38,700 bases of DNA from Methanomicrobiales archaeon (GTDB taxonomy: Archaea; Halobacteriota; Methanomicrobia; Methanomicrobiales; Methanospirillaceae), in contig JANXYM010000011.1 of NCBI GenBank assembly GCA_025350045.1, forward strand, positions 1 through 38,700, given 5' to 3'. Positions 12,410 to 36,890 of the stretch are shown piece after piece. A program made the translations under genes and the position numbers. The first letter of the stretch is position 1. The number at the start of each line of letters is the position of its first letter. Below the pieces are notes generated by a model, which was not told the DNA's origin, searched no databases, and saw nothing but the letters and a program-made list of their open reading frames with translations.

Positions 12410-12475
12410 AAAAAAAGGGGCCCGGGGGCTGCTCTCCGTATACTGCCTCCCCCTTTGGGGAGAGAGGGGGTCACC
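12410..12475 (-). repeat. GC-rich hairpin repeat, family 2, copy 1
   Basis: Reading the minus strand, a GGGGG/CCCCC-rich stem-loop segment ends in a CCCC run followed by seven T (A at 12410-12416 on the plus strand). The plus-strand core has TGCCTCCCCC, a short loop, then GGGGAGAGAGGGGGTCA. The same word order recurs at 17909-17972 and 21537-21600. The hairpin-plus-T-tract form is like an intrinsic terminator. Confidence 0.7.
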
Positions 12476-14870: not shown

Positions 14871-15462
14871 TTTCAATCAAACCCTGCTCTAAAAATTTTG
14901 CCGGACCGTGCCTGAAAAATTTCACAGCAGACTTTGATTGGGAAATTTTCATCGAATCGTAATTTGGAATTTTCAACCGGACCTTGCTGAAATAATTTCA
15001 ATCAAAGCTTGATGTTAAATTTTCAACCGGCCCCATGACCCTGCTTAATTTTTTTTAATCGCGATCATGATCGTGTTTGAAACCTTTTTGCGGATCAACT
15101 GCACTTTGATTCTCATTTCTCAACCGCGATCACAAGCCCGGCTGTTCAATCACAAAACCTGTTCCGGGAACACTTTCATTTTCAGACGTTGGCTGCACCC
15201 GGTTTTTCAACTTGACCACACTTAAAAAACGATCCGCAGATCAATCAAACCCTGGTTTCAGATTTTTGATTGACTCCTCTATCTCTGCTCAAATCTTTTC
15301 CATTGCGATCACGATCTCGTTTGAAAAAGGGTAATGAATCAATCAAACCTTGATTTCGAATTTTCACCCAGACCCTGCTCTAAAATTTTTCATCAAACCT
15401 TGCCTGAAAAAAAACAATCACACTCTGCTTGAAATTTTTTAACCAGACTTTGATTGAAAAAG
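14871..15462. repeat. AT-rich degenerate tandem array, about 25-bp units
   Basis: About 590 bases made of irregular units of 24-30 bases, with some longer ones. A typical unit begins with a T-tract and CAA, has an ACCTTGCTT-like core, and closes with an A-tract. Examples are units at 14871-14895, 14896-14919, 14920-14945, 14946-14969, 14970-14995, 14996-15019 and 15020-15048, and again at 15361-15385 and later. Recurrent words are CAATCAAACCTTGA, CAACCGGACC and GCGATCA. A 12-bp palindrome (CGATCATGATCG) lies at 15062-15073, with a related word at 15304-15318. No reading frame is maintained. It is not a CRISPR, because neither repeats nor spacers are constant. Confidence 0.75.
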
Positions 15463-17836: not shown

Positions 17837-18271
17837 ATCTTTTCTGGCTCAGTCGAAAATCTGTTTTTTCCCAGGGTTCAATGAGGCTCTTATATCTGTC
17901 ATGTGTGTGCCCCCTCTCTCCCCCGGAGGGGGAGGCAGTCCAGGGGGAGCATCTCCCTGACCCCCTTTTTTTACCGGGACAATTGGCACAAGCGATACTA
18001 CCGTGTTATCTGAAACAACTCTGCCGGCTACCGTTCATCCTGATCCCGTGAGCCTCGCAGTATTCCCGGATCTCTTTTTTGGCAATACCATACCGGGGCA
18101 GCTATGGAGAACGCCTCATCGCAGGTGACCGAATTTCCGATACCGGCGTTCAGAAATGCCTGTGCGATCTTATCCGTTTCCATGTCACCAGATCTCCCGT
18201 GTTCCCGGCAGAGTGGTTACCGGTGCAGCACCATGAACCTTATGGACTCGGCCGGTCCTATTATACCTGTA
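17837..18271. other. Intergenic region between glgP and dtdA
   Basis: About 435 bases holding copy 2 of the hairpin repeat (17909-17972). The remainder has no convincing gene. The dtdA frame is open from 18104, but the region before 18272 lacks family similarity, so it is most likely untranslated leader. Confidence 0.5.
17909..17972 (+). repeat. GC-rich hairpin repeat, family 2, copy 2 (terminator-like)
   Basis: On the plus strand, 17909-17965 forms two stem-loops (CTCCCCCGGAGGGGGAG and CAGGGGGAGCATCTCCCTG), then CCCCC and seven T (17966-17972). It lies about 75 bases after the glgP stop codon and reads as an intrinsic-type terminator for that gene. The same word order is found, inverted, at 12410-12475 and 21537-21600. 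Confidence 0.75.
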
Positions 18272-21437: not shown

Positions 21438-21536
21438 TGCTGTACTGGCTGACTGTACAGATTCCTGAGCGGTTCAGCCGGGAAAATTATGGGACCGGGA
21501 GAAACGAGCAGTTACCCGCCGGGTCCGCTTCCGAAT

Positions 21537-21600
21537 AAAAACCGGGGGTCAAGGGGGTGCCCCCCCTGGACTTACCTCCTCCTCTGGGGGAGAGTGGGGT
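21537..21600 (-). repeat. GC-rich hairpin repeat, family 2, copy 3
   Basis: The plus strand reads AAAAACC, then GGGGGTCAAGGGGGTGCC, CCCCCTGGACTTACCTCC and a GGGGGAGAGTGGGG end. On the minus strand this is a GC-rich stem-loop segment followed by a short T-run (A at 21537-21541). It lies about 110 bases beyond the 3' end of the minus-strand monooxygenase gene (stop at 21708), as expected for that gene's terminator. The match to copies 1 and 2 is imperfect, but the word order is the same. Confidence 0.65.
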
Positions 21601-25589: not shown

Positions 25590-25697
25590 CCCGTTGACTG
25601 CTTTCTCACTGCCATCACCTCTCTCCCGGGTTTCAAAACAGCATAACGCAACTTGTATTATCTCGCGCAATATAAATCCAATAACAGGAGATCCCGC
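25590..25697 (+). promoter_or_regulatory. Conserved promoter of the large secreted protein gene, copy 1
   Basis: The sequence from about 25605 to the ATG at 25698 is nearly the same as the one before the second giant gene (29100-29194). It includes GCATAACGCAAC, a TATA-like ATATAA (around 25671-25676), and an ACAGGAGA ribosome-binding site. TATA to ATG distance is about 25 bases, so the transcript start is very close to the start codon. The conserved stretch upstream of the TATA box is a candidate regulator site. Confidence 0.6.
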
Positions 25698-28379
25698 ATG
25701 ATTCCCCGTTTCACCCGCTGTATCCTCATCCTTTTCATCCTTCTCGTAACTGTGCCGGTTTTTGCCGCAGCCGCTCCCGCTGCGGGCAATGCCCGTCTGG
25801 CCCCGACTGCACCGCCAACGACTACTGCCGCACCCGTGACGACGGTTGCCTGTGTTGCACCCTGCCAGTGTCTCGTGTATGCAGATGCGGTCAGCCAGTG
25901 GGGTGCATCCGGATTTTCCCAGTGCGCCGAACACCCCTGCGAAGTTTCCCGTTCGGTTACCGGATCGCCGGTAGAGAAGTACTGTTACAAGCAAAAACTG
26001 GCCGCTGCGCCTGTGTCGACAACCCCGGCACTGGTTCGTATTGACCGGACAATACCAATAACCGTTCCGACAACACCCACACAGGTTCGCATGGACCGGA
26101 CACGGCCGATGACCAATACGACCCTTGCGCAGCGGGCGGATGTTCCTGTTCCCGGTATTAGAACATTTGGCAATGGGTCCTTCCAGCGACTTGGCATTGA
26201 GGTAGGAAAAACCAAAATATACCCATCCCTTGATACATCATCCCCGTATTTTGCCAGCCAGTTCACTATTCCCGATGGGAAAACCGAGGGGAAAAAAAAG
26301 TTCTCGGGACCTGTCACATTCTCATATCTCGAGGTGAACCAATACTCAGGATCTCTTCCTTCGTACACAAACTGGCCCGGGTGGGGTGATCAAGAGTCCT
26401 TCATGATAGGCAGCGGGGCAAAAGAATTTACCACAAACTTCCGTTGGACAACTGCAGAGAAAGATGTAAAAGGAGCACTTTTCCAGATCTCGCGGTACCC
26501 GTTCCCTGCAGATCCCGTTCACTGGCAGAACCAGTATGTCCCGGGCCTCGTCGGCTCCGGGCAGGTCAGTGAGGACCATATTGGATATGATGAAAATACC
26601 GCTACCGATTACCGTTACTTCCGGATTAATTTCGCCCGGGCGGCAAACCGGAACCCCGGACTTCCCCCCTACTTCGACGGCACTGCCTCCATAACCCAGG
26701 ACAGCCAGGGAATCGGCGAAGCACAGCAGATGACAAAGATCCCGCTGTTGAATACCGCAATAGTCATGACGGATTATTCGGTTGGCTCATTCAACTTCGG
26801 ACTACCATCGGCGTTTGTTGCTATGGCCTCCGATGATATGACCCCGTATGAGCTGGGAAACCCGAACGAGAACCTGCAGCTCAGCTGTGCTGACTGCCTC
26901 AGTCTCCGCCCCTTCACCCCTCTTGAAACATCGGTGTCCGGTACGGAACAGACGTATTTTGTCAGGGTTGTGCCTCTCCATGCCTACGGGAAGGCTGGCG
27001 TACCCACCCTCCCGGTCACGGTCACCGTACAACGCCCCAAGGCGTGTCCGACCGGCGTGACAAATGTGCAGATCAACCCGCCGTCCGTAAAAATCCTGTC
27101 CTTTACCCCGACCCTCTTTGCCCCGCATGACCGGTTCCCGGGAGGTCCCCAGTATTTTGTTGCGATCAAGGACCCGGACAACTGTACCCAGAAGACACAG
27201 TCCCCTGTCAACACTCCCACCACGTATGTTGTGGGCTCACCCTGTTACGATTTCATGACTTTTGCCCACGGGCAGGCTGGCTGGCACTGGTTTATCCCCC
27301 CGGCAGACGAGTCGCACTGGTACGATTTCCTGCCCGGGTTCCTCGTAGATATCATCAGTGCACTCAATGATACCTACACCATTATTTCCCAGACCTGGAA
27401 TGATGCCCAGGACTTTGCTGCCGAGATGACGGCAAAAGGGTGGTCAGTCCTGCTCACTGCGGGCATCTACCAGTGCGAAGACCATAAAGAATGTTTAAAC
27501 GCTGTCCGGTCGGGACAGTCGGCAGCCCTTTCTGCAATCGGCATCCCGCCCAATCTCCCTACGTACGATCAAATGATGGACGCCGGGGCGGATTACCTCA
27601 TACAGGTGACAGCAGACGAGCTCGGGGCGGGTGAGGCGTACGAAGGAATGCCTGAGGAAGTAAAAGCCAGGATCAGATCAGAATCCAAAACCTTTGCAAA
27701 AGAGTTAGTCGGGGCCCAGAGTTCCTCCCGCAAAGACCAGCTCTCCAGTGCGGTAGGTACCTGGTTCATGCCGGACCCGTTGTATAATTCACCGCACCCG
27801 GCAACCGTGATGGTGAGGGTTTACAATCCGGCAGGAAATCCCCGGTCCACGAGCAGGGTGACGATAACAGTTACGGATTCGGCCGGACTGTACAAGTCCC
27901 GCCAGATGGCTGTCCCGCCGCTAACACCCGGGGAAGGTGTCGCGTTCCCGGTGGTTCTTTCCGAGGATTATGCGCCATTCAAAGGTGGTACCAACTGCCC
28001 GAATGATTACCCGGACGATTCTTCACAATATCCCTGTTATATGTGGAAGTGGCTTGTCCACCGGGACAACGATCTTCCATTCGACACCTTCAGCGCCTCG
28101 GTGCAGTACGCGTATCCCACGTCTGCGGGTCAGGATTCATTCATCCTGAGTAATCTGGGGCCGGACTCCAGTGGTAAAACGCTCACCGGTCTGCTGCAGA
28201 TGGATCCCGGAACACAGAACTGCCCCGCTACCAGTTCCGTCATCACCTACCCGCAGGGCTGGACCATGAAGCTCGATGGCAAGACGGTGGATCCCGAAGC
28301 AATGGATCCCGGTTTCCTTACGGTCGGGGCCGCTGACGGTATCATCAGGACTACCTGTACATCACCCGAGGTGTGTTGA
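25698..28379 (+). CDS. Large secreted Cys-module protein, unknown function (paralog 1)
   Basis: The start at ATG 25698 (MIPRFTRCILILFILLVTVP) is preferred over the open TTG at 25653, because the ribosome-binding site GGAG is nine bases before it and the signal peptide begins there. The product has 893 residues. It has a cleavable export signal, then a cysteine-rich module (residues 51-97; CVAPCQC...CAEHPCE...VEKYC), with the same cysteine spacing as in the next giant gene. A Thr/Pro-rich linker and a middle strand-rich domain follow. About residues 535-640 form a helical region shared with the paralog, containing IGIPPNLPTYDQMMDAGADY. The C-terminus ends CTSPEVC, so a disulfide is possible. 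It is probably extracellular or surface-attached. No enzyme signature is seen. Confidence 0.85.
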   Translation: MIPRFTRCILILFILLVTVPVFAAAAPAAGNARLAPTAPPTTTAAPVTTVACVAPCQCLVYADAVSQWGASGFSQCAEHPCEVSRSVTGSPVEKYCYKQKLAAAPVSTTPALVRIDRTIPITVPTTPTQVRMDRTRPMTNTTLAQRADVPVPGIRTFGNGSFQRLGIEVGKTKIYPSLDTSSPYFASQFTIPDGKTEGKKKFSGPVTFSYLEVNQYSGSLPSYTNWPGWGDQESFMIGSGAKEFTTNFRWTTAEKDVKGALFQISRYPFPADPVHWQNQYVPGLVGSGQVSEDHIGYDENTATDYRYFRINFARAANRNPGLPPYFDGTASITQDSQGIGEAQQMTKIPLLNTAIVMTDYSVGSFNFGLPSAFVAMASDDMTPYELGNPNENLQLSCADCLSLRPFTPLETSVSGTEQTYFVRVVPLHAYGKAGVPTLPVTVTVQRPKACPTGVTNVQINPPSVKILSFTPTLFAPHDRFPGGPQYFVAIKDPDNCTQKTQSPVNTPTTYVVGSPCYDFMTFAHGQAGWHWFIPPADESHWYDFLPGFLVDIISALNDTYTIISQTWNDAQDFAAEMTAKGWSVLLTAGIYQCEDHKECLNAVRSGQSAALSAIGIPPNLPTYDQMMDAGADYLIQVTADELGAGEAYEGMPEEVKARIRSESKTFAKELVGAQSSSRKDQLSSAVGTWFMPDPLYNSPHPATVMVRVYNPAGNPRSTSRVTITVTDSAGLYKSRQMAVPPLTPGEGVAFPVVLSEDYAPFKGGTNCPNDYPDDSSQYPCYMWKWLVHRDNDLPFDTFSASVQYAYPTSAGQDSFILSNLGPDSSGKTLTGLLQMDPGTQNCPATSSVITYPQGWTMKLDGKTVDPEAMDPGFLTVGAADGIIRTTCTSPEVC

Positions 28380-28417
28380 GCCGGGTGAATGGGCTGTAGA
28401 AATTCCGGCTGCATGCT

Positions 28418-28518
28418 TGAGGGGGGGTCGGGCAGTGTACTTTGAGGGGGCAGGCCGGGAACGCTCGGTATTTTGGCGAGTTGTCTCATGCTGATGGGGG
28501 TCGTCCGGCCAACTCGCC
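28418..28518 (+). repeat. Structured dispersed repeat, family 1, copy A
   Basis: It starts GGGGGGGTCGGGCAGTGTAC, then TTTG, a GGCAGGCCGGGA block, GGCGAGTTG (28475-28483), CTGATGGGGGTCG, and closes with CAACTCGCC (28510-28518). That last word is the exact reverse complement of the 28475-28483 word, so a 9-bp stem can form. Copies B and C lie at 35998-36096 and 36794-36890, and an inverted head fragment at 35875-35898. Confidence 0.8.
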
Positions 28519-28566
28519 GGGGCCCTGCCGGGTGAGGTTTTTCTCATCATAGATATTTTATCCGAA

Positions 28567-28599
28567 TTGACAACCTGATTGACAATCGAATTGACAACC
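28567..28599. repeat. Three short direct repeats, 12-bp period
   Basis: TTGACAACC, TTGACAATC and TTGACAACC begin at 28567, 28579 and 28591, exactly 12 bases apart. Iteron-like spacing could be a protein-binding site, although 12 bases is a little more than one helical turn. Confidence 0.6.
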
Positions 28600-29089
28600 A
28601 CTCTTTCAGAATGGAATGAGCTCCCGGACTGAGATTCCCCGCCGTTATGTGACAGACACCTGCCCGAACACCATTTTCCGGCATGAACCCGGGAATCCCA
28701 AAATCCCCTTTCTTTCCCGCCCGACCGTTCTACCTGTCGCGGCATCCGTAATCAGCCTGCCAATCGCTGCTATGTGCGGTTTTTTGCAGGGTGATTTTCC
28801 CGGGAAACTGTTGCGGAAACGCGAAAAACGTTTTTGGACTTTTTTACCTGGACGCCGCTGAATTGGCCGGTGTTCCGGGTCCGGGTTTTGTCCTGATCAG
28901 GATGGTGCGGTTTTGCGAGGATTTTTAAAAATTTTATGGCCGCTTTTCCCTGATCAGCGGTTGCCGGGCTGGTTGGTGCCGGTAAAAAAGGGTCTGGAAT
29001 CCGACAGGGGAGAAGTTCGGCACAGTCATGGACTTACGTGAATCTGCCCGATCCTGATGCAGGCTGGATACATGCCGTATGTACCATTT

Positions 29090-29194
29090 CAGTAAATTTT
29101 CACTGTCCGATCACCTTTTTCTTTGGTTTCCCGTACTGCATAACGCAACCTGTATATCTTCAACGGATATAATTCCAAGAACAGGAGACCCCGC
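29090..29194 (+). promoter_or_regulatory. Conserved promoter of the large secreted protein gene, copy 2
   Basis: A sequence almost identical to the one before 25698. It has TTTTCACTG, then GATCACC, a T-rich stretch, GCATAACGCAACCTGTAT, the TATA-like ATATAA around 29168-29173, and CAGGAGA before the ATG at 29195. Conservation outside coding sequence over about 95 bases suggests that a regulated promoter was duplicated together with the gene. Confidence 0.65.
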
Positions 29195-32100
29195 ATGCAT
29201 CCCCGCTTCGCACTCTGTATCATCCTCGCCTTATTCCTGGCAATTACCATCCCGGTTTTTGCCGCAGCCGCAACCGGTTCGGTCAATGCCCGTGTTGCCC
29301 CGACCCTGGCGCCGCCCATGACTACTACGGAATCCCCCGTTACCTGTGCCGCACCCTGCCAGTGCCTGGCCTATGCAGATGCGGTCAACCTGTGGGGCGA
29401 TGGCGGGTTCAGCCAGTGCGCCGAGCTGCCCTGCGCTGGTTCCCGTTCGGTGACCGGGGCGCCGGTTGAGAAGTACTGTTTCAAACCGAAACAGGCGGTC
29501 GTTCCCGCAACCACGACCCCCGCACAGGCCCTCATCCCCCGGACGCGGGCATCTGCGGTTCCGACAACGCTGGCACAGATTTTCATCCCCGGAAACGTAT
29601 CGACGACAACACCGGTACCGGTCCAGCACCCGGTTATCATTCCTCCCAATCCTTCGCGCCAGCCGGTCCCGGTGCCGCTCGATATGTGCCGTTACGATCC
29701 CGTGAAGAACCAGTGCAATGGCATCTGTCCCCAGACCGGGAAGACCTGTATGCAGATCCAAGAGAGCACATGTGGCGACGTTACGGGTCCGGGTGCGGTG
29801 AAGTGCGGGTGCGTTGATACGAAATTACCTGTCTCCCTGGCAGCATCAGGCCTGGTACGGGCTGCCGTGAACACACAGACCGGTTATCGTTCCTATTCTG
29901 CACCCCCGAAAGGTGCAGTGGAATCGGCAGTCCAGATCCTCACGGGGATCGTACAGAAAAAACCCGATCTCAGTTCTGCTGATGCACGTGCGTACACGAT
30001 GGATACCGCCCGTCCGCTGGCAGTACTGCCTTCGGGCATCTGCGCAGATGACCTCTTCCGCACCACCCTTGTTTTTGCTGACAGCCAGACCGCTTTTATC
30101 AGCACCGATACCGGCAGCCAGAAGGGTACCTTTTCGTGGGACAGTGCAGATCCCCGGGTCAGGACGGCGGTCTGGCAGGTCTCGATCTTCCCCTACCCGG
30201 TGAGCCGTGAGAACTGGTCCAATGTACCCGGCCTCCTTGCGCAGGGAAATCTTGAAGGCGATGAACGCACTTTTTCCATAGACTTCTCAAAGAGCGTACC
30301 GACTGCCACCGATGCTGCATCGGTCTGGGTTGACCGGAAAGCGTTCCTGGTTGTCGGAAAAAATGCCCTCACCCGGGTCCGGGCCGATCTTATGGCCCCG
30401 GACAGCGGAGCACCCGTTGAAAACATGGCAGCATTCGCAGCAAACCGCCAGAAAATGACTGCTGGTCTCGATACAGCTCTTGTGAAAATTGACACCCGCA
30501 TTGCCGCTCCTGCAGCGTACACACTGGTCTCCGGAGTAAAAATCGGATCATTTGCTGATACCGGCAAAGATCTGACCGGCTCAGCAGCCCCGGGAGCAGC
30601 GGCGGTAGGAATCCGGTCCGGGACCTATCTGGCAAAGAATGGTGTGTATGCCCCGGTATTGAGTGTGCCCGCGCTCACCAAGGGTGGACTGGCCGGCTCC
30701 CTTCCCCAGAACCAGCGAACACTCTTTGTCCGGGTGGTGCCGTTTGACCAGAACGGGAATTATACGAACAATCCCTCAAACACAAAGGAAGTTGTGATCG
30801 GTTCACCCCGGTTCAATGTGACAAGCCCGTGGTCCGGGTGGGATGCCTTGCCTGAACCGGACCAGACCGGGTTTACCAACCCGCCTGAACGGGTCAGTTT
30901 CGGAGAACGTCTCTACCAGTTCAATGTCCGGTCCGACCACCTGATCTATATGAGTTCCGCTGACGAACAGGGTGTAGTCACGGGCTGGGTACAGGTTCCC
31001 GGTTCTCCGCAGACGGACAAGAGTATCACTGCCGTCTCGTACCGTCGTATTTCTGCAGGCAGGGAATCTACCGACTCGCACATCTACCTGTTCGTGACCC
31101 GCCAGGATACCGGCCTCACCTGGTATGCCCGGATGGACGACAAGGGAGTGTGGAGTGCATGGAAACAGGTGCCGCAAAAAGACACCGCTGTAACGTATGA
31201 TCTTGAAAAAGCCGTGTCCCTGAATGGCAACCTCTACGTGCTGGCCCGGTTCAATTACCGGTTCTATCACCCGGGCGATATGAGTTATTCACACGTTGCT
31301 ACGAGCTACGTGTACCAGCGGATGAACGATGACCAGAGCGAGAAGTGGGAGACAGACTGGCAGGATACCGGTGTTGCCACGAGCGGCAGTAAGGGGAAGA
31401 TCGCCGGGGCAACCTCCCAGTTTATCGTGGGTGCGTACCAGGACCTCTCGGACCAGCCCCATTTCATCATCTATTATCCCCCGTCATCGCAGAAACCCTG
31501 CACCTCCTGCAACCCGGTAGTGACCATGAATACCGTCACCACCATCAACGTACCGCCCGAGATCCTCAATGCCAAGACCAGCGCAGACGATCTTACCGCC
31601 ACGTCGTACCATGGCCGGCTCTACTTCTTTGTCCGGGGGAAGGGAGGGCACATCTATATGAACTGGGCGACGATCCTGAACCAGCTGGGTTCTACGCAGC
31701 ACTTCGGCAGCCTTCATAGCTGGGAGGATATCTCCCCGCTCCAGATGGCTGCCGGGAGCGGTATTACAAGCCTCCCCAATCAGGAAGGCGACCGGCTGGA
31801 TGTGTACGCAAACGATATCCAGTCCGCAGCACCGGGCTCCGGCGGGAACGGACTCTTCTTGTTCCTCTTTGCCCCGCAATCGACCGGCTTCCACCGGAAT
31901 TCGCTGGGAGGTGCTCCTGAAAATACCCAGGTACTTGCATCGTTCAGCGGCGAAAAGGTGAAGCAGGTCGGGGATATTGCGATGACCGGCTACAGCTCAA
32001 AGGACATCAATATCAGCTGGACCCGCACGACCCCGTTCTGGTTTGCCTGGAACAGCTCCCGGTCCGATCTGTACTACGCCGAGTGGCAGGTTTCAGCCGC

Positions 32101-33676
32101 ACCCTTTGATGAGGTCAACCCGAAGTTCGATGACAAGGGCATAGTCTCCCGGGGCCGGCTGAGCGTCAGCACCACCGATCCGGACCTTGCTACGTACGGA
32201 TCTGGATATTTCAATGCCAATGCCCTGCCCGAATATACTGATCAGGCTCACCTGTTCCCGGTTAATTTCCCCGGGTTTGGCACCGCTCCTGATCCTGCAA
32301 GTCCCACAGTAACCCCGTACTATCTCCGGGTCCTCGCGGTTGCACCGACAACCGGGCCGGGGAGCTTCACCGCGTATGCCTCCGAACAGACCGAGGTCGA
32401 CTGGGGCAAGCAGGACGAGTTCGTGCCGAAATTCTGCACAGCCCCGACCTTTTACCCGTACGAGTACAAGCTGCCCCAGGTCCGCATCACCGGTTACATA
32501 CCGGTAGATCCCCGGGAGGCTGACGCTGAATGTCACGTGATTGCAACGACAGGTCACACGTACTGGAAAGAACAGTACCTGAAAAACCCGACTCCTTCGG
32601 TGCTGATGGGTAAGGCAACGAATGATCCAAACAAGGATGCTGACCAGTTCGCAACAATGATGGTCGGCCCGGTCGATTACGGCTGGACCAAGAATGTCTG
32701 CACGCCTCCTGATGATAAAGCGTGGTGGGAGAAGATCATAGAGGGGTTCAAAGACCTTGTCGCCCTCATTGCCTCACTCGTGAACAATATTGCAGATGCC
32801 TACAACAGTACGAAGCTGATCATCATTTCCTCCTTCTGTGCAGGAGACAGCACCTGTATAACCGTGGTCTCGACCGGGGTGGATATCGGTCTTGCGGCGC
32901 TCGGGGTGCCCCCGTCCCTCCCGAACTTCGACAAGCTGATGGACGAAGGCGCTGATTACCTGGCAGCAACCATTGCAGAAGAGTCCGGGATACCCGGTTC
33001 TGAAATTGCGCTCAGGGCCGGGATGCATGAGATGGCGGGCAGCATGAAGAATGTCCCGAGTCCCCATGACGCGTACGGGCTCCAGCCGGATCCGGAGTAC
33101 CAGTACCGCCCGGCCCGGCTCTCGATTGAATTGCGGAACAATGACCCGGTCAACACCACGCCCCCCGGATCGTTCCGGTTCGAAGATGACTGGGGACTGT
33201 TTAAGACCACGCAGCCCGATACCCCGTTCCCGTCGATGGCACCGGGAGAGGTCCTGACCTTCCCCCTTATCCTCAGGGAGGACCAGTGGAAGGGTGTCAC
33301 CTGCACGGAAAGTTTTGCGGAAGGCAGCGATGTCTGGACTGTTCCCTGCGACGAGTCGTACCCCGGCCAGATCAACAAGGGCTGGTGGGAGAAGTACCAG
33401 CAGGCTGCCAGTGGCGGGGACTCGTTTACCCTGTATTACGATGGGATGTCCGCGAATTTCACCAGCAGTATTACCCGCCAGATGGAGAAACAATACGGTG
33501 TCCCGCTTGATATCTACAAGGGAGATGGCTGGATGCAAGACTACAAATCTCCTGACTGCTTTGCGGAAAAACACCAGCTGGTGTTCCAGGCAACGGATAA
33601 CACGGGAAAGAAGATCTCCGGGGATCCGATCACCCGGCTGAACGTGGATTCCCTTGTGTGGGAATGGCATGCCTGA
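29195..33676 (+). CDS. Giant secreted Cys-module and beta-propeller-like protein (paralog 2)
   Basis: A 1493-residue product with an N-terminal export signal (FALCIILALFLAITIPVFAA). Residues 50-97 repeat the cysteine module of paralog 1 (CAAPCQC...CAELPCA...VEKYC). A second cysteine-rich cluster lies at residues 162-207 (MCRYDPVKNQCNGICPQTG, then KTCMQIQESTC and CGCVD). The middle part, about residues 550-900, has blade-like repeats (SDHLIYMSSADEQGVVTGWV, then TWYARMDDKGVWSAWKQVP) like lectin-type beta-propellers. Near residues 1175-1270 is the C-terminal region shared with paralog 1 (LGVPPSLPNFDKLMDEGADY). No cell-wall anchor or transmembrane tail is visible. A surface adhesin or carbohydrate-binding role is inferred from the propeller only. 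Confidence 0.85.
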   Translation: MHPRFALCIILALFLAITIPVFAAAATGSVNARVAPTLAPPMTTTESPVTCAAPCQCLAYADAVNLWGDGGFSQCAELPCAGSRSVTGAPVEKYCFKPKQAVVPATTTPAQALIPRTRASAVPTTLAQIFIPGNVSTTTPVPVQHPVIIPPNPSRQPVPVPLDMCRYDPVKNQCNGICPQTGKTCMQIQESTCGDVTGPGAVKCGCVDTKLPVSLAASGLVRAAVNTQTGYRSYSAPPKGAVESAVQILTGIVQKKPDLSSADARAYTMDTARPLAVLPSGICADDLFRTTLVFADSQTAFISTDTGSQKGTFSWDSADPRVRTAVWQVSIFPYPVSRENWSNVPGLLAQGNLEGDERTFSIDFSKSVPTATDAASVWVDRKAFLVVGKNALTRVRADLMAPDSGAPVENMAAFAANRQKMTAGLDTALVKIDTRIAAPAAYTLVSGVKIGSFADTGKDLTGSAAPGAAAVGIRSGTYLAKNGVYAPVLSVPALTKGGLAGSLPQNQRTLFVRVVPFDQNGNYTNNPSNTKEVVIGSPRFNVTSPWSGWDALPEPDQTGFTNPPERVSFGERLYQFNVRSDHLIYMSSADEQGVVTGWVQVPGSPQTDKSITAVSYRRISAGRESTDSHIYLFVTRQDTGLTWYARMDDKGVWSAWKQVPQKDTAVTYDLEKAVSLNGNLYVLARFNYRFYHPGDMSYSHVATSYVYQRMNDDQSEKWETDWQDTGVATSGSKGKIAGATSQFIVGAYQDLSDQPHFIIYYPPSSQKPCTSCNPVVTMNTVTTINVPPEILNAKTSADDLTATSYHGRLYFFVRGKGGHIYMNWATILNQLGSTQHFGSLHSWEDISPLQMAAGSGITSLPNQEGDRLDVYANDIQSAAPGSGGNGLFLFLFAPQSTGFHRNSLGGAPENTQVLASFSGEKVKQVGDIAMTGYSSKDINISWTRTTPFWFAWNSSRSDLYYAEWQVSAAPFDEVNPKFDDKGIVSRGRLSVSTTDPDLATYGSGYFNANALPEYTDQAHLFPVNFPGFGTAPDPASPTVTPYYLRVLAVAPTTGPGSFTAYASEQTEVDWGKQDEFVPKFCTAPTFYPYEYKLPQVRITGYIPVDPREADAECHVIATTGHTYWKEQYLKNPTPSVLMGKATNDPNKDADQFATMMVGPVDYGWTKNVCTPPDDKAWWEKIIEGFKDLVALIASLVNNIADAYNSTKLIIISSFCAGDSTCITVVSTGVDIGLAALGVPPSLPNFDKLMDEGADYLAATIAEESGIPGSEIALRAGMHEMAGSMKNVPSPHDAYGLQPDPEYQYRPARLSIELRNNDPVNTTPPGSFRFEDDWGLFKTTQPDTPFPSMAPGEVLTFPLILREDQWKGVTCTESFAEGSDVWTVPCDESYPGQINKGWWEKYQQAASGGDSFTLYYDGMSANFTSSITRQMEKQYGVPLDIYKGDGWMQDYKSPDCFAEKHQLVFQATDNTGKKISGDPITRLNVDSLVWEWHA

Positions 33677-33728
33677 GGGTGGGACCGGTTTGACAGATGT
33701 CAATTTTTTTAAAGGGTGGCCTTTGCGG

Positions 33729-34346
33729 ATGAAGCCGGAACATTTCATGAGGATAGAACGGGGTCGGATATGCGGGTGCACGGGCGCACAGGTGATCACG
33801 GCAAAGCGGAGCGGTGATACAGAACTCCCCCTCAGTACAGGGGAGATCCCGGTGAAAAACACCGGGCCATCAGGATCCGGTGGATCCCGGAGACCCCGTG
33901 ACGCACTGTACGAGCAGACCCAGCGGGGTTTTCTCATCATCGGGTTAGTGAGTGCAGTTGTTATCGTTATTCTTGTATCCATGTACCAGTTCGGTGCTAT
34001 CCCGGTCACGGCTGTTGTACTGGTAATCATGATCGCGGTGCTGGCGTGCTTCTCCACGCTTACGGTATCGGTTTCCGCCGATACCCTCCGCCTCCGTTTC
34101 GGGCCGGTCGGGCTCATCAGGAAGAGCTGGCCGTTGTCAGAGATCGCTTCTGTGACTCCGGTGACCAATCCCTGGTACTATGGCTGGGGTATCCGCTGGA
34201 CCCCGTACGGGATTCTCTATAATGTTGCCGGGTACGGAGCAGTGGAAGTCAGGCTGCTCTCCGGCAAGACATTCCGTATCGGTACCGGCGAACCCGAAGT
34301 ACTCCGTCACGCGATAGAACAGGCCCGGGCGAAGAAGAATCCGTGA
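33729..34346 (+). CDS. Two-helix membrane protein with a PH-like domain, unknown
   Basis: The start is uncertain. I use ATG 33729, which gives 205 residues. An ATG at 33747 is equally possible, and a GTG at 33852 would remove a low-similarity N-terminus. Two adjacent transmembrane helices (GFLIIGLVSAVVIVILVSMY and IPVTAVVLVIMIAVLACF) are followed by a cytoplasmic strand-rich domain of about 100 residues (LRLRFGPVGLIRKSWPLSEI, then GYGAVEVRLLSGKTFRIGTG, then HAIEQARAK). The pattern of two helices plus a beta domain ending in one helix is that of bacterial PH-like membrane proteins. The gene begins about 50 bases after the giant gene, on the same strand. Function unknown. Confidence 0.75.
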   Translation: MKPEHFMRIERGRICGCTGAQVITAKRSGDTELPLSTGEIPVKNTGPSGSGGSRRPRDALYEQTQRGFLIIGLVSAVVIVILVSMYQFGAIPVTAVVLVIMIAVLACFSTLTVSVSADTLRLRFGPVGLIRKSWPLSEIASVTPVTNPWYYGWGIRWTPYGILYNVAGYGAVEVRLLSGKTFRIGTGEPEVLRHAIEQARAKKNP

Positions 34347-34432
34347 TAACCGGGGGCTGGAACAGGGCCCGGACGGACCCCTCTCCTGACTCCGGGGCGC
34401 AGGCCGGTCACCGGACCGGAATGCCCGGGTTC

Positions 34433-34798
34433 CTATCCCCCGACAATGACTTTGAACCCGCCATATGCCATGCGATTCATATCGAACGGCATCTGCATGT
34501 CCTTGTTTTTGGGGTCGTTCATGAGCGGGTCCTGCATTACCTTTGCGTTCACCTCGTCGCGGTGAGCCCGGGACTTAAAGACGATGAACGAGAAGATGAC
34601 CGTCTCTCCGGCTTTAGCCTTTGTCATTTTCGGGAAGGTGATGCCCGGCATCTCCGGGGTGAGGTCGTCGCCGGCACACTCGAAATATTCAAGGGCGCCG
34701 TATTTTTTCCAGGTTTTTTCCCCCATCTTTGCCATCTTGCGGTACGCCGGCATATTTTCCTCCGGCACAACCATCACGAATCCGTCAACGTACTTCAT
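34433..34798 (-). CDS. DUF1428 family protein
   Basis: A 121-residue protein with the full DUF1428 pattern: YVDGFVMVVPEENMPAYRKM, WKKYGALEYFECAGDD, ETVIFSFIVFKSRAHRDEVN, and the closing PFDMNRMAYGGFKVIV. The fold is an ABM-like ferredoxin dimer. The family is common in bacteria, often next to VOC or AHSA1 genes, and has no firmly assigned reaction. Here it is divergent from a VOC gene, and other ABM and AHSA1 family genes lie 11-13 kb upstream, so it may be part of a set of small-molecule-handling genes acquired together. Confidence 0.9.
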   Translation of the reverse strand: MKYVDGFVMVVPEENMPAYRKMAKMGEKTWKKYGALEYFECAGDDLTPEMPGITFPKMTKAKAGETVIFSFIVFKSRAHRDEVNAKVMQDPLMNDPKNKDMQMPFDMNRMAYGGFKVIVGG

Positions 34799-34977
34799 TG
34801 GTTCACATCCCTTTTTTTTGCTTCTGTCTCCCTCCGGGTGATGATAAATGTATCCCGTTGTTTCAAAAACCGGAATAATCTCTGACCGGCAACTCCGGCA
34901 GAGTACAGCCCCCTGCCATTGTCAGGATGAAAATTTTTATCCCTTCCGGTTTCCGTTATAGATCTGGTGACAGCCTG

Positions 34978-35346
34978 ATGTCAGCGATTGTGCACTTTGA
35001 TGTACCGGCAGAGGATACCGGGAGAGCAAAGAAGTTCTATTCCTCGCTCTTTGACTGGAAGTTCGAATCCTACCCGGGAATGGAGTACTATCTGATAACC
35101 ACGACGAACATTGATGGCACGCCAGGTGTGGGCGGCGGCATGGGGAAACGAATGGACCCCTCGCAGCGGATGATGAACTATTTCGGCGTGGCCTCCATCG
35201 ATGCCGCGATGAAGAAGGTGACCAGCCTCGGGGGAAAACTCATCACGGGGAAGATGCCGGTGCCGGGCATGGGTTACCTGGCAAACTGCATTGATACCGA
35301 GGGGAACTTCTTCGGTCTCTGGGAAGAGAACAGAGAGGCGAAGTGA
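34978..35346 (+). CDS. VOC (glyoxalase/bleomycin resistance) family protein
   Basis: I place the start at ATG 34978 (SAIVHFDVPAEDTGRAKKFY) with a GGTGA site nine bases upstream; a more distal ATG at 34927 would add an atypical tail. The product has 122 residues with the paired beta-alpha-beta-beta-beta halves of a VOC domain. The first half is HFDVPAED...FYSSLFDWKF, and the second is YFGVASIDAAMKKVTSLGGK, ending in the motif DTEGNFFGLWEE. The His and Glu positions of a metal site look conserved (H in VHFDV, E in LWEE), though one metal ligand is often missing in this subgroup. Substrate unknown. Confidence 0.9.
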   Translation: MSAIVHFDVPAEDTGRAKKFYSSLFDWKFESYPGMEYYLITTTNIDGTPGVGGGMGKRMDPSQRMMNYFGVASIDAAMKKVTSLGGKLITGKMPVPGMGYLANCIDTEGNFFGLWEENREAK

Positions 35347-35383
35347 TCGCATTCCCGCTCTCCGGAAATCCTGCGGGTCCGGC

Positions 35384-35941
35384 ATGAGAGCGCCGGGCAC
35401 CTGGACCCTGGAGGAGCTGTTTGCCGGCCGACCGGCCGCGCTCGAACTCTTCCACGCCATCCGCCAGTACATCGGGTCGCTCGGCCCGGTAACTATGGAG
35501 GTCATGAAGACGCAGGTCTCCTTTGGGGCAGAGACGAAATTTGCCTGGGTCTGGCTCCCGCAGCTCTGGATCAAAAAGCAGCCGGACGAGAGTGTCGTAC
35601 TGACATTCGATCTGCGCCGCCGGATCGATGACCGCCGGATTAAGCAGTCAGTCGAACCGCGGCCCGGCCGCTTTACGCACCACGTGGTTGTCCGGAAGGA
35701 GAGTGATCTGGACCGCGATCTCCGGGACTGGATCCGTGAGGCGTACGAACAGCATACCTTATTCGTGGTGAGGGGATCGGGAGGGTATAATCCGATCCCC
35801 TGTGGACGGGCCTGCCCGGGAAGTTCACGTCACAAAAATAGTGATATTCAGGATCGCTCATGGCTCTGGTTTTACAAAGTACACCGCCCGACCCCCCCAA
35901 AACCCTCCGGATTTTTGGACATATTATTTGTATCTTTTTGA
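35384..35941 (+). CDS. DUF5655-like protein with an altered C-terminus
   Basis: The start is ATG 35384 (RAPGTWTLEELFAGRPAALE), 37 bases after the VOC gene. The first 125 residues match the DUF5655 pattern (LFHAIRQYIGSLGPVTMEVM, then KTQVSFGAETKFAWVWLP, then DRDLRDWIREAYEQH), which usually ends there. The open frame continues to 35941 with about 55 residues of unusual composition. Part of this tail (YKVHRPTPPKPSG) is encoded by the inverted head fragment of repeat family 1 at 35875-35898. So the normal stop may have been lost by insertion or rearrangement. The tail also covers the hairpin at 35772-35800. The extended product may not be functional in the tail. DUF5655 is often found next to helicase or restriction proteins, but its role is unknown. 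Confidence 0.7.
   Translation: MRAPGTWTLEELFAGRPAALELFHAIRQYIGSLGPVTMEVMKTQVSFGAETKFAWVWLPQLWIKKQPDESVVLTFDLRRRIDDRRIKQSVEPRPGRFTHHVVVRKESDLDRDLRDWIREAYEQHTLFVVRGSGGYNPIPCGRACPGSSRHKNSDIQDRSWLWFYKVHRPTPPKPSGFLDILFVSF
35772..35800. repeat. Perfect 9-bp inverted repeat
   Basis: GGGGATCGG at 35772-35780 and CCGATCCCC at 35792-35800 are exact reverse complements with an 11-base loop. The hairpin lies where the DUF5655 family part of the gene ends, so it may be the original terminator of that gene. Confidence 0.6.
35875..35898 (-). repeat. Inverted head fragment of repeat family 1
   Basis: These 24 bases are the exact reverse complement of 36001-36024, the head of copy B. No further similarity extends past either end. 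The inverted pair spans about 150 bases and could form a long stem or be the remnant of an inversion. Confidence 0.85.
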
Positions 35942-35997
35942 GCAATTTTACGAAGTGATTTTTGTAAGGGGGCGGGGCCAGAAGCAGGCTGACTATG

Positions 35998-36096
35998 AGA
36001 GGGGGGGTCGGGCGGTGTACTTTGCATGGCAGGCCGGGACCGCGTTATGTTATGGCGAGTTGGTGTGTTTGCTGATGGGGGTCGCCAACCCGCCTC
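35998..36096 (+). repeat. Structured dispersed repeat, family 1, copy B
   Basis: It has the same word order as copy A, with a GGGGGGGTCGGGCGGTGTAC head, GGCAGGCCGGGA, GGCGAGTTGG (36054-36063), CTGATGGGGGTCG and CCAACCCGCC (36085-36094). The last word is the reverse complement of GGCGAGTTGG except for one position, so the stem is kept. It lies between the DUF5655-like gene and the toxin-antitoxin pair. Confidence 0.8.
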
Positions 36097-36183
36097 ACCA
36101 GGGCCTCGCTGGTCTGCGTGGATACATCAAGGGTATCTGCGATGGCATACCTTCCCAATGATTATTAGATCCGGGATGTAAGT

Positions 36184-36408
36184 ATGATTATGAGCTCTGG
36201 TGTCACGATCGATCAGGTCTACCAGGAGATCAAAAAAATCCGGGCGGATATGGTGAAGCGGGAAGATCTCGAAGCCCTTGTTGACACGGTAGAGATCCTC
36301 AGCAACTCTGAAAAAGTTCAGGCAATTAAAAAAAGCGAGCGCGATATCAAACAGGGGAAAGTAAAGGCCATTTCCTCTGTTGATGATCTTCTCAACGAGT
36401 GTGCCTGA
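36184..36408 (+). CDS. RelB-like antitoxin
   Basis: A 74-residue helical protein, mostly acidic and basic alternating (VTIDQVYQEIKKIRADMVKR, then AIKKSERDIKQGKVKAISSV, DDLLNECA). The C-terminal DIKQGKVKxxxxxDDLL segment is the pattern of small RelB/Phd-like antitoxins, which wrap the toxin. The N-terminal DNA-binding part is short, so its fold cannot be named. The start could also be ATG 36190. The stop TGA overlaps the toxin ATG by one base (TGATG), the usual coupling in type II modules. It probably represses its own promoter together with the toxin. The antitoxin would be degraded under stress, freeing the toxin. Confidence 0.75.
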   Translation: MIMSSGVTIDQVYQEIKKIRADMVKREDLEALVDTVEILSNSEKVQAIKKSERDIKQGKVKAISSVDDLLNECA

Positions 36409-36674
36409 TGGCGTGGGTCATCAAGCGGACCGATACTTTTCTCGAAAGTTTTTCCCTTGTCAGGAACAATAAAAAAGTCGTTGCCGAGCTTGGTAAGAAA
36501 CTCAAGCGGCTTTCCGAAGATCCTTTGCATGTCGGTGGATGGTTGTCCGGTTCGCTTCACGGTAAGAAATCCACGCGAATCGCAAAACAATACCGGCTGA
36601 TATTTCTTCCCGATGAGCGGGAGCAGGTTGTGTACCTGGTTTTGATCGATCAGCGGGAACATGCGTATGATTGA
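36408..36674 (+). CDS. RelE/ParE-like toxin
   Basis: An 88-residue protein of the RelE/ParE fold. RTDTFLESFSLVRNNKKVVA gives the two N-terminal helices. KLKRLSEDPLHVGGWLSGSL is the beta-strand entry, KKSTRIAKQYRLIFLPD the central strands with basic residues, and VVYLVLIDQREHAYD the closing strand. RelE enzymes cleave mRNA on the ribosome and ParE proteins inhibit gyrase. The terminal REHAYD and the basic IAKQYRLIF segment favour a RelE-type RNase, but the two cannot be separated surely here. ATG 36408 overlaps the antitoxin stop; the frame's earlier ATG at 36399 would overlap it more. Confidence 0.8.
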   Translation: MAWVIKRTDTFLESFSLVRNNKKVVAELGKKLKRLSEDPLHVGGWLSGSLHGKKSTRIAKQYRLIFLPDEREQVVYLVLIDQREHAYD

Positions 36675-36793
36675 TATTGAGCCGGATTTCGCAGGAGCCA
36701 ATCGACCGTATTATAAAAAGAACTGTGCCGCATTTCGCTGAACACGGTCTGCCGGGCCGGTTGGTGATGGGGAAGCGGGGTCATGTCCTCGGT

Positions 36794-36890
36794 GGGAGGG
36801 AGGCCGGGCGGTGTACTTTGCAAGGCAGACCGGGAATGCGATGTAATTTTGGCGAGTTGGCCTGCTCGTTGATGGGGGTCGCCCGGCCGT
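36794..36890 (+). repeat. Structured dispersed repeat, family 1, copy C
   Basis: A diverged copy: GGAGGCCGGGCGGTGTACTT, TGCAAGGCAGACCGGGA, GGCGAGTTGGCC, GTTGATGGGGGTCG, then CCCGGCC. The first half matches copies A and B well. The closing arm is less complementary than in the other two copies. It begins about 120 bases after the toxin stop codon. Confidence 0.75.

Follow-up and report, generated by a model that had tools for sequence, protein, structure and literature searches.

Inverted three-head repeat arrays with stepped spacing in Methanoregula and related archaea, candidate protein-binding DNA that may form small loops

The bacterial interspersed mosaic elements (BIMEs) of enterobacteria, built from repetitive extragenic palindromic (REP) units and, as repetitive integration host factor-binding palindromic elements (RIPs), carrying a site for integration host factor (IHF) between the units, are the closest described relatives in layout of the repeat arrays reported here. 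These arrays were met as three dispersed copies, A, B and C, in a 38,700-nucleotide stretch of DNA from a Methanomicrobiales archaeon (the window, on contig C93 of a 2.53-Mb assembly), and they share with BIME/RIP an intergenic position, alternating inverted units (here called heads), a putative bending-protein site between units, inter-unit sequences that are mutually unrelated, and a proposed role in the chromosome. Archaeal origin recognition boxes also have a G-run adjoining a dyad-like motif, as is the case here, but they differ from the arrays in the order of the parts and in sequence, and the arrays are dispersed. Miniature inverted-repeat transposable elements (MITEs) derived from insertion sequences resemble the arrays insofar as one array subfamily is carried by such a MITE, whereas paired ends are absent around the window copies. 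The looping of Lac and ara DNA between phased operators offers a likeness in its stepped spacing near 11 bp per turn (from an excerpt of PMC1762422), and differs in that here three sites plus centre motifs occur at many loci, with a putative binding protein. As far as the excerpt of PMC12284271 goes, the SegB sites of Sulfolobales are likewise archaeal, scattered over the chromosome and also present upstream of segAB; their motif, a 13-bp palindrome TCTAGA-S-TCTAGA located mostly within genes, is by eye unlike the heads. No description of the repeats reported here was found among the papers listed in searches of the open-access literature.

The geometry of the arrays comprises the alternation of heads, a limit of three heads in type 1, stepped spacing and a centre motif whose arm lengths are fixed. 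The heads, and in most cases the lengths, are kept although the spacer letters have drifted, several head types have one layout, and the arrays lie between open reading frames (ORFs) without orientation preference. These properties are consistent with phased protein-binding DNA that would form small loops, with sequence-specific sites H1+, H2- and H3+ and a palindrome-like site midway between them, a reading to which we give a probability of about 0.6.

The order of a complete array is H1(+)-O-H2(-)-I-H3(+), O and I being the spacers, and the head shared by the window copies, GGGGGTCGGGCGGTGTACTT, is one site of it. This head occurs 13 times in the genome of the window, where a pattern search found heads in inverted pairs, and in 23 of 39 genomes of the genus (at most three mismatches; three control matches altogether), which bears out the dispersed repeat family of the original prediction. 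A class-wide search allowing up to two mismatches retrieved heads of this type (type 1) from 25 of 232 genomes and 5 of 40 genera, with zero control matches; lone matches in G108, G124 and G156 may be due to chance, three heads lie between NOG1 and a gene of the MAHFNQ family (see below) in G231 (genus g27), and one head lies upstream of a MAHFNQ gene in G178 (g18). Starting from 110 loci of Methanoregula and two related genera, 102 head clusters were built with a weight matrix (at least one head scoring at least 20 and neighbours at least 8), which gave no match scoring 10 or more in 99 kb of shuffled sequence. Three heads were present in 46 clusters, two in 22, one in 34 and four in none, and neighbouring type-1 heads were on opposite strands in 114 of 114 cases. 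An open frame of at least 150 aa spans 6 of the 102 clusters. The nearest flanking ORFs (at least 100 aa, assigned mechanically and not gene calls) were codirectional at 50, convergent at 21 and divergent at 20 of 91 arrays, which rules out a promoter- or terminator-specific placement. The four Evansella matches listed for the head pattern correspond to one near-identical sequence and are unrelated, and viral contigs contained 16 stretches with the 16-nt head pattern, none of them with two heads.

Head-to-head distances proceed in steps of 103/126/148 nt. The start-to-start distances were 99-105 (41 cases), 127, 137, 145-150 (13) and 160 nt across O, and 96-105 (37), 112-114 (3) and 121-128 (17) nt across I. 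Close to most midpoints there is a palindrome-like centre motif of 15 nt with the consensus TTTTACGACGGAAAT, which scored at least 8 in 69 of 87 non-redundant spacers and in 107 of 1740 shuffled ones; 61 of those 69 matches, compared with 14 of 1740 in shuffled sequence, were within 6 nt of the midpoint. The arms measured about 36/47/58 nt from the motif to H1 or H3 and about 44/55/66 nt to H2, counts that leave out 18 spacers under the score and 8 off-centre ones. The best arm period was 11.2-11.3 nt (R 0.73 and 0.77; the 99.9 percentile under a uniform null was 0.39), and for total distances a period of 10.5 gave R 0.45, one of 11.5 gave 0.71, and the best period was 23 with R 0.80. In-vivo LacR loop fits of 11.08 and 11.60 bp per turn are given in the excerpt of PMC1762422.

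The behaviour of the arrays in evolution was analyzed with 22 pairs of orthologous three-head arrays from 8 loci. Heads were 85-100% identical and spacers 51-80% (57-64% after shuffling), the spacer identity being at most 5 points over the shuffled value in 30 of 44 comparisons; detection by likeness to the matrix favours conserved heads, whereas the number, order and spacing of the heads are free of that selection. Lengths agreed within 6 nt at orthologous loci, with the exception of the PHI-peroxiredoxin locus, where the species differed by full steps (O 103, 103, 104, 147, 147 and 150; I 104, 125, 123 and 113). The array at the NOG1 locus is common to genera g1 and g27; one member of this group, G042 (L258), has no NOG1 and was assigned on the strength of the remaining neighbours. 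Selection would thus appear to act on sites and lengths more than on the intervening letters. This is a rare case of DNA geometry kept while most of the intervening letters were lost, and therefore natural variation reads out the helical step directly.

At PHI loci without type-1 heads the repeats are arrays with other heads, namely T2 (GGGGGTCGGGCAGGGGCA, in G048 and G040) and T3 (GGTCAGTGGGGGCACTTT, in G015), and a blind scan for alternating triples added T4 (GGGGGTCGCRTGGGTACA), T5 (GGGGGTCAGTGAGGGACA), T6 (GGGGGTCGGAGGTGGAAA) and T9 (GGGGGTCTGTGGTGAAA). The part common to the head types is GGGGGTC, and the layout is the same. The blind scan gave no triple in 316 kb and none in 400 kb of shuffled sequence, and two, both of one coding-like motif, in 400 kb sampled from G040 and G011. 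T4 heads were found in 20 of 39 genomes of the genus, with 2 control matches altogether. Among the 132 of 150 T4 matches listed, the 18 left out being lone matches, close neighbours were on opposite strands in 78 of 79 cases, and there were 29 clusters of three heads, 18 of two, 1 of four and 23 of one (the 18 lone matches included). In this same set the O distances, in the type-1 convention, were 102-103, 137-139, 147-150 and 160-161 nt and the I distances 79-81, 100-104 and 125-127 nt, so that the spacing classes of T4 and type 1 overlap, and the centre motif derived from type 1 (score at least 8) was near the midpoint in 21 of 44 T4 spacers as opposed to 9 of 880 shuffled ones. The T4 spacers are a fairer test of the centre motif than the type-1 spacers, and the T4 result is the best independent confirmation of the layout. 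T6 heads were present at two places in G053, one of them before a MAHFNQ gene, and T2 heads, seen first at the PHI locus, were then seen before MAHFNQ genes in G048 and G042. At G043:C1:469177-469252, three heads in the same orientation and 28 bp apart (two of type 4, one type-1-like) adjoin a normal array, the sole exception to alternation that was met.

With respect to BIME/REP, the alternation of units is thus found here in both T1 and T4. A REP unit is an imperfect palindrome, while the T1 and T4 heads fold at 0 kcal/mol and all 200 shuffles fold at least as well. Y1_Tnp, the REP-associated tyrosine transposase (RAYT) type of domain, had no match in the genome of the window and was matched in 5 of 14 control genomes. 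Further differences are the archaeal host, the maximum of three heads in type 1 and the stepped spacing kept over species. Because the unit is not palindromic and a Y1 transposase is not found in the genome of the window, the arrays are laid out like BIME/RIP yet are not members of that class. Here BIME-like arrays occur in an archaeon whose genome is without the RAYT transposase by which the bacterial ones are explained. According to an excerpt of PMC2817692, every RAYT gene has REPs of its own type at its flanks, a pairing that resembles the several head types here with an array before a MAHFNQ paralogue.

The original prediction had considered a small RNA and had described a stem kept between two arms of the repeat. 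Neighbouring heads are indeed inverted and could pair into the long stems of a structured non-coding RNA, and since most arrays contain one head type, their complementarity is kept when the type changes. Nevertheless, the shared changes of heads within type-1 arrays were at the level of shuffled data (H1/H2 5 versus 5.3, H2/H3 8 versus 7.3 and H1/H3 6 versus 9.3), the spacers (39 O and 48 I, both strands) folded like their dinucleotide shuffles (mean z -0.27 to 0.14), Rfam gave no match in the window at the gathering score, and the flanking context shows no bias to any direction of transcription. As to the stem, the 5' arm GGCGAGTTG is invariant in six compared copies (A, B, C, two in G008 and one in G006), and its best 3' partner has 0 mismatches in A, 1 in B, 4 in C, 2 and 3 in G008, and 4 in G006. 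Pairing is therefore good in 2 of the 6 copies (A and B), weaker in G008 and at chance level in C and G006, and none of the six has compensating changes, so that neither the small RNA nor the conserved stem is upheld. Because the heads show no covariation and the spacers no fold, we regard a structured RNA as very unlikely.

A mobile element was also among the earlier suggestions, and one subfamily does fit it. In G048 and G049 an element of 332-336 bp (8 copies measured) carries an array inside TGCTCTGTAGAAA ends, 6 of 13 aligned copies show by eye perfect 8-bp target duplications, and similar TGCTCTGTAGAAA-like ends surround (by eye) an array in G053. G049 also has a 1005-bp element, bounded by these ends, whose product is a DDE_Tnp_1 transposase (E 1.4e-9); transposases of this kind belong to the IS5 group. 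Terminal inverted repeats and target duplication are thus present in the OWC_0057/0058 subfamily. If MITEs were the whole explanation, a transposase would have moved the heads as inverted repeats, and the arrays would be insertions without a role; the occurrence of H3 with its tail X at several unrelated places (A, B and C) and a single end-like match (2 mismatches) at 28390, just before copy A, would also agree with it. In 47 sources, however, paired TGCTCTGTAGAAA ends outside the array were restricted to OWC_0057/0058 and none surrounded the window copies; elsewhere there were scattered single end matches (2-3 mismatches) and one facing pair in a spacer (L104). The absence of such pairs around other subfamilies in these sources speaks against TGCTCTGTAGAAA as general element ends. 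No target duplication was seen by eye at the heads themselves, several arrays are common to species at orthologous loci, that of NOG1 even to two genera, and spacer letters mostly randomised at mostly kept lengths are unexpected of neutral insertions. The array was therefore made mobile in one lineage by a MITE, for which the prediction of a miniature element stands, and no sign was found that MITE carriage might be a general mode. Already weakened by the orthologous-array comparison, an explanation by MITEs only is, in our judgement, improbable. At L104 5364-5741 (G020:C101), two heads are 359 nt apart with facing TGCTCTG-like ends between them (2 mismatches each), as if a MITE had landed in the spacer.

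The arrays might instead be operators, that is, multi-site regions of a family of DNA-looping transcription regulators, each of which would control its own gene and a small regulon. Their loop-like stepped spacing agrees with this, and so does their position relative to genes of the MAHFNQ family, a family of 167 aa present in 188 of 231 genomes of the class, with several members per genome in Methanoregula. An array or inverted pair was located within 520 nt upstream of 41 of 106 MAHFNQ genes and downstream of 4 of 104 (Fisher p 1.7e-10), in a set of 111 gathered genes in which 30 loci had been picked as best matches to an array-bearing gene, two loci were fetched twice (L305/L501 with and L320/L492 without array), orthologues are non-independent, and about 7 of the 41 upstream cases are pairs that lack the GGGGGTC word. 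With a stricter scan, 20 additional paralogue loci yielded 1 array. At the NOG1-MAHFNQ locus the array ends, by eye, directly before a TATA-like stretch. On the other hand, the other arrays are not biased towards promoters (21 of 91 are flanked by convergent ORFs), neighbours such as NOG1, SerA-like, MoaA-like and SIS-domain isomerase genes form no obvious regulon, and MAHFNQ, which had no match better than E 0.1 in Pfam, NCBIfam, PHROGs or PDB, has no recognisable DNA-binding domain in the same comparisons. We thus consider operators a rather unlikely explanation. The AlphaFold model of MAHFNQ (two sequences) was of low confidence, with a mean pLDDT of 53.8, and no relatives were confirmed in viral contigs. 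In the genome of the window, the MAHFNQ gene of the NOG1 locus (L008 ~1800-1880, G000:C76) is seemingly frameshifted near its start (VAHFNQKPGTKSAAS followed by a stop, by eye), and the array of this locus has two heads only.

MAHFNQ can be put forward only tentatively as the binder of type-1 heads. Contrary to a rule of one protein for one head, G052 and G006 have type-1 arrays and, among the matches listed, no close relative of the type-1 MAHFNQ, and in G052, G006, G002, G017 and G040 type-1 heads are present, yet another head type precedes the best MAHFNQ match (51-63% identity to the query). In G015, which has type-3 heads at the PHI locus, the type-3 array predicted before MAHFNQ was absent from the one examined of its 3 MAHFNQ genes.

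Returning to protein-binding DNA as the preferred reading, we propose that a head-binding protein, different for each head type and with a common part reading GGGGGTC, and a shared centre-binding protein that bends DNA would come together on a single helical face, thereby folding the DNA into a pair of small loops. The complex could perhaps serve chromosome organisation or long-range regulation, and its factor may be tied to the MAHFNQ paralogues, whose genes often have an array upstream; arrays captured by a MITE could spread. Such arrays suggest that methanogens have a nucleoprotein complex not described so far, for which there is a candidate protein family. Only tentatively, and with the odds against it, can one go further and envisage a multiplexed archaeal DNA-folding system, in which each MAHFNQ paralogue would be linked to a head type of its own, would regulate its own gene through a three-site array placed before it and would act on dispersed arrays of the same type with a common centre-binding partner. 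If so, head specificity would change from one species or paralogue to another with the helical geometry conserved, a layout for which we know of no parallel.

Several observations weigh against the protein-binding reading. Type-1 heads are lacking in 16 of 39 genomes of the genus, and hence this head type is dispensable; at the PHI-peroxiredoxin locus they are absent from between both genes in 6 of 12 genomes having both (G000, G048, G049, G015, G043 and G040). Single heads account for 34 of the 102 clusters, and the cluster set contains orthologous, non-independent loci, so that its tallies overstate the number of events. Mixed arrays exist, such as that of the G053 MITE with heads one and two of type 1 and the third of type 4, and one T4 pair is on the same strand. 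Spacer identity exceeded the shuffled value by 6-9 points in 8 of 44 comparisons and by at least 10 in 6 of 44, the latter in the SerA, L255, C103 and NOG1 groups. The spacers scored with the type-1 centre matrix had also served to train it, an arm period of 10.5 is only a little inferior (R 0.69 and 0.72), and the head-binding and centre-binding proteins are both putative.

In the window itself, copies A (28418-28518), B (35998-36096) and C (36794-36890) are all present where they had been placed, with pairwise local alignment scores of 90 (A-B), 77 (A-C) and 90 (B-C) against maxima of 27, 26 and 28 in 500 shuffles each, and the inverted fragment noted with them is the reverse-complement head in the middle of copy B (Table 1). 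Copy B is a complete three-head array with a decayed H1, a point absent from the original prediction, and in the orthologous array of G008 the parts follow each other in the same order and H1 is easier to recognise. Copies A and C consist of H3 and the X tail only; X follows H3 again at two places in G008 and in G006, and we regard copies with one head, A and C among them, as remnants. A DUF5655 gene (Pfam E 2e-19, residues 41-154) has a frame that extends into H1, O and H2 of copy B.

Table 1. Parts of the three repeat copies in the window
Feature	Position	Strand	Basis
Copy A, third-type head H3, alone, GGGGGTCGGGCAGTGTACTTTG	28423..28444	+	head matrix/pattern
Copy A, X tail after H3 in this subfamily, with GGCGAGTTG / CAACTCGCC	28445..28531	+	sequence comparison
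Copy B, decayed first head H1 (AGGGGATCGGGAGGGTATAATC)	35771..35792	+	position matches H1 of the orthologous G008 array
Copy B, O-spacer centre motif (TTTTGTGACGTGAAC on the minus strand), arms 37 (H1) and 44 nt (H2)	35823..35837	-	by eye, outside motif-matrix scoring
Copy B, middle head H2, inverted	35875..35896	-	head comparison
Copy B, I-spacer centre motif (TTTTACGAAGTGATT), arms 56 and 49 nt	35946..35960	+	centre motif
Copy B, third head H3	36003..36024	+	head comparison
Copy B, X tail	36025..36112	+	sequence comparison
Copy C, head H3 alone (GGAGGCCGGGCGGTGTACTTTG)	36799..36820	+	head comparison
Copy C, X tail, without the 3' arm	36821..36890	+	sequence comparison

A short repeat, ATTGACAACCTGATTGACAATCG, 3' of copy A (window ~28560-28610) recurs beside arrays of G008 and G006 (L173; L287). 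Between copies B and C there is a small gene pair, 36184-36408 (+) and 36399-36674 (+), whose products are DUF2683-like (E 0.0011) and ParE-toxin-like (E 0.0033), both below the cut-off, and which might be a toxin-antitoxin pair. The large neighbouring proteins encoded at 25653-28376 and 29195-33673 have a duplicated start region (74-77% DNA identity) and no Pfam match at E 0.001. AT-rich repeats of the form TTTCAATCAAACCCTGCTC..AATTTT occupy 14871-15461 in both orientations, several of them at 25-nt spacing. A second, GC-rich dispersed repeat (CCCCGGAGGGGGAGGCAG...CCCTTTTTT) is located at 12410-12460, 17920-17973 and 21536-21589, inverted between copies, and a stretch similar to it adjoins a head in L054.

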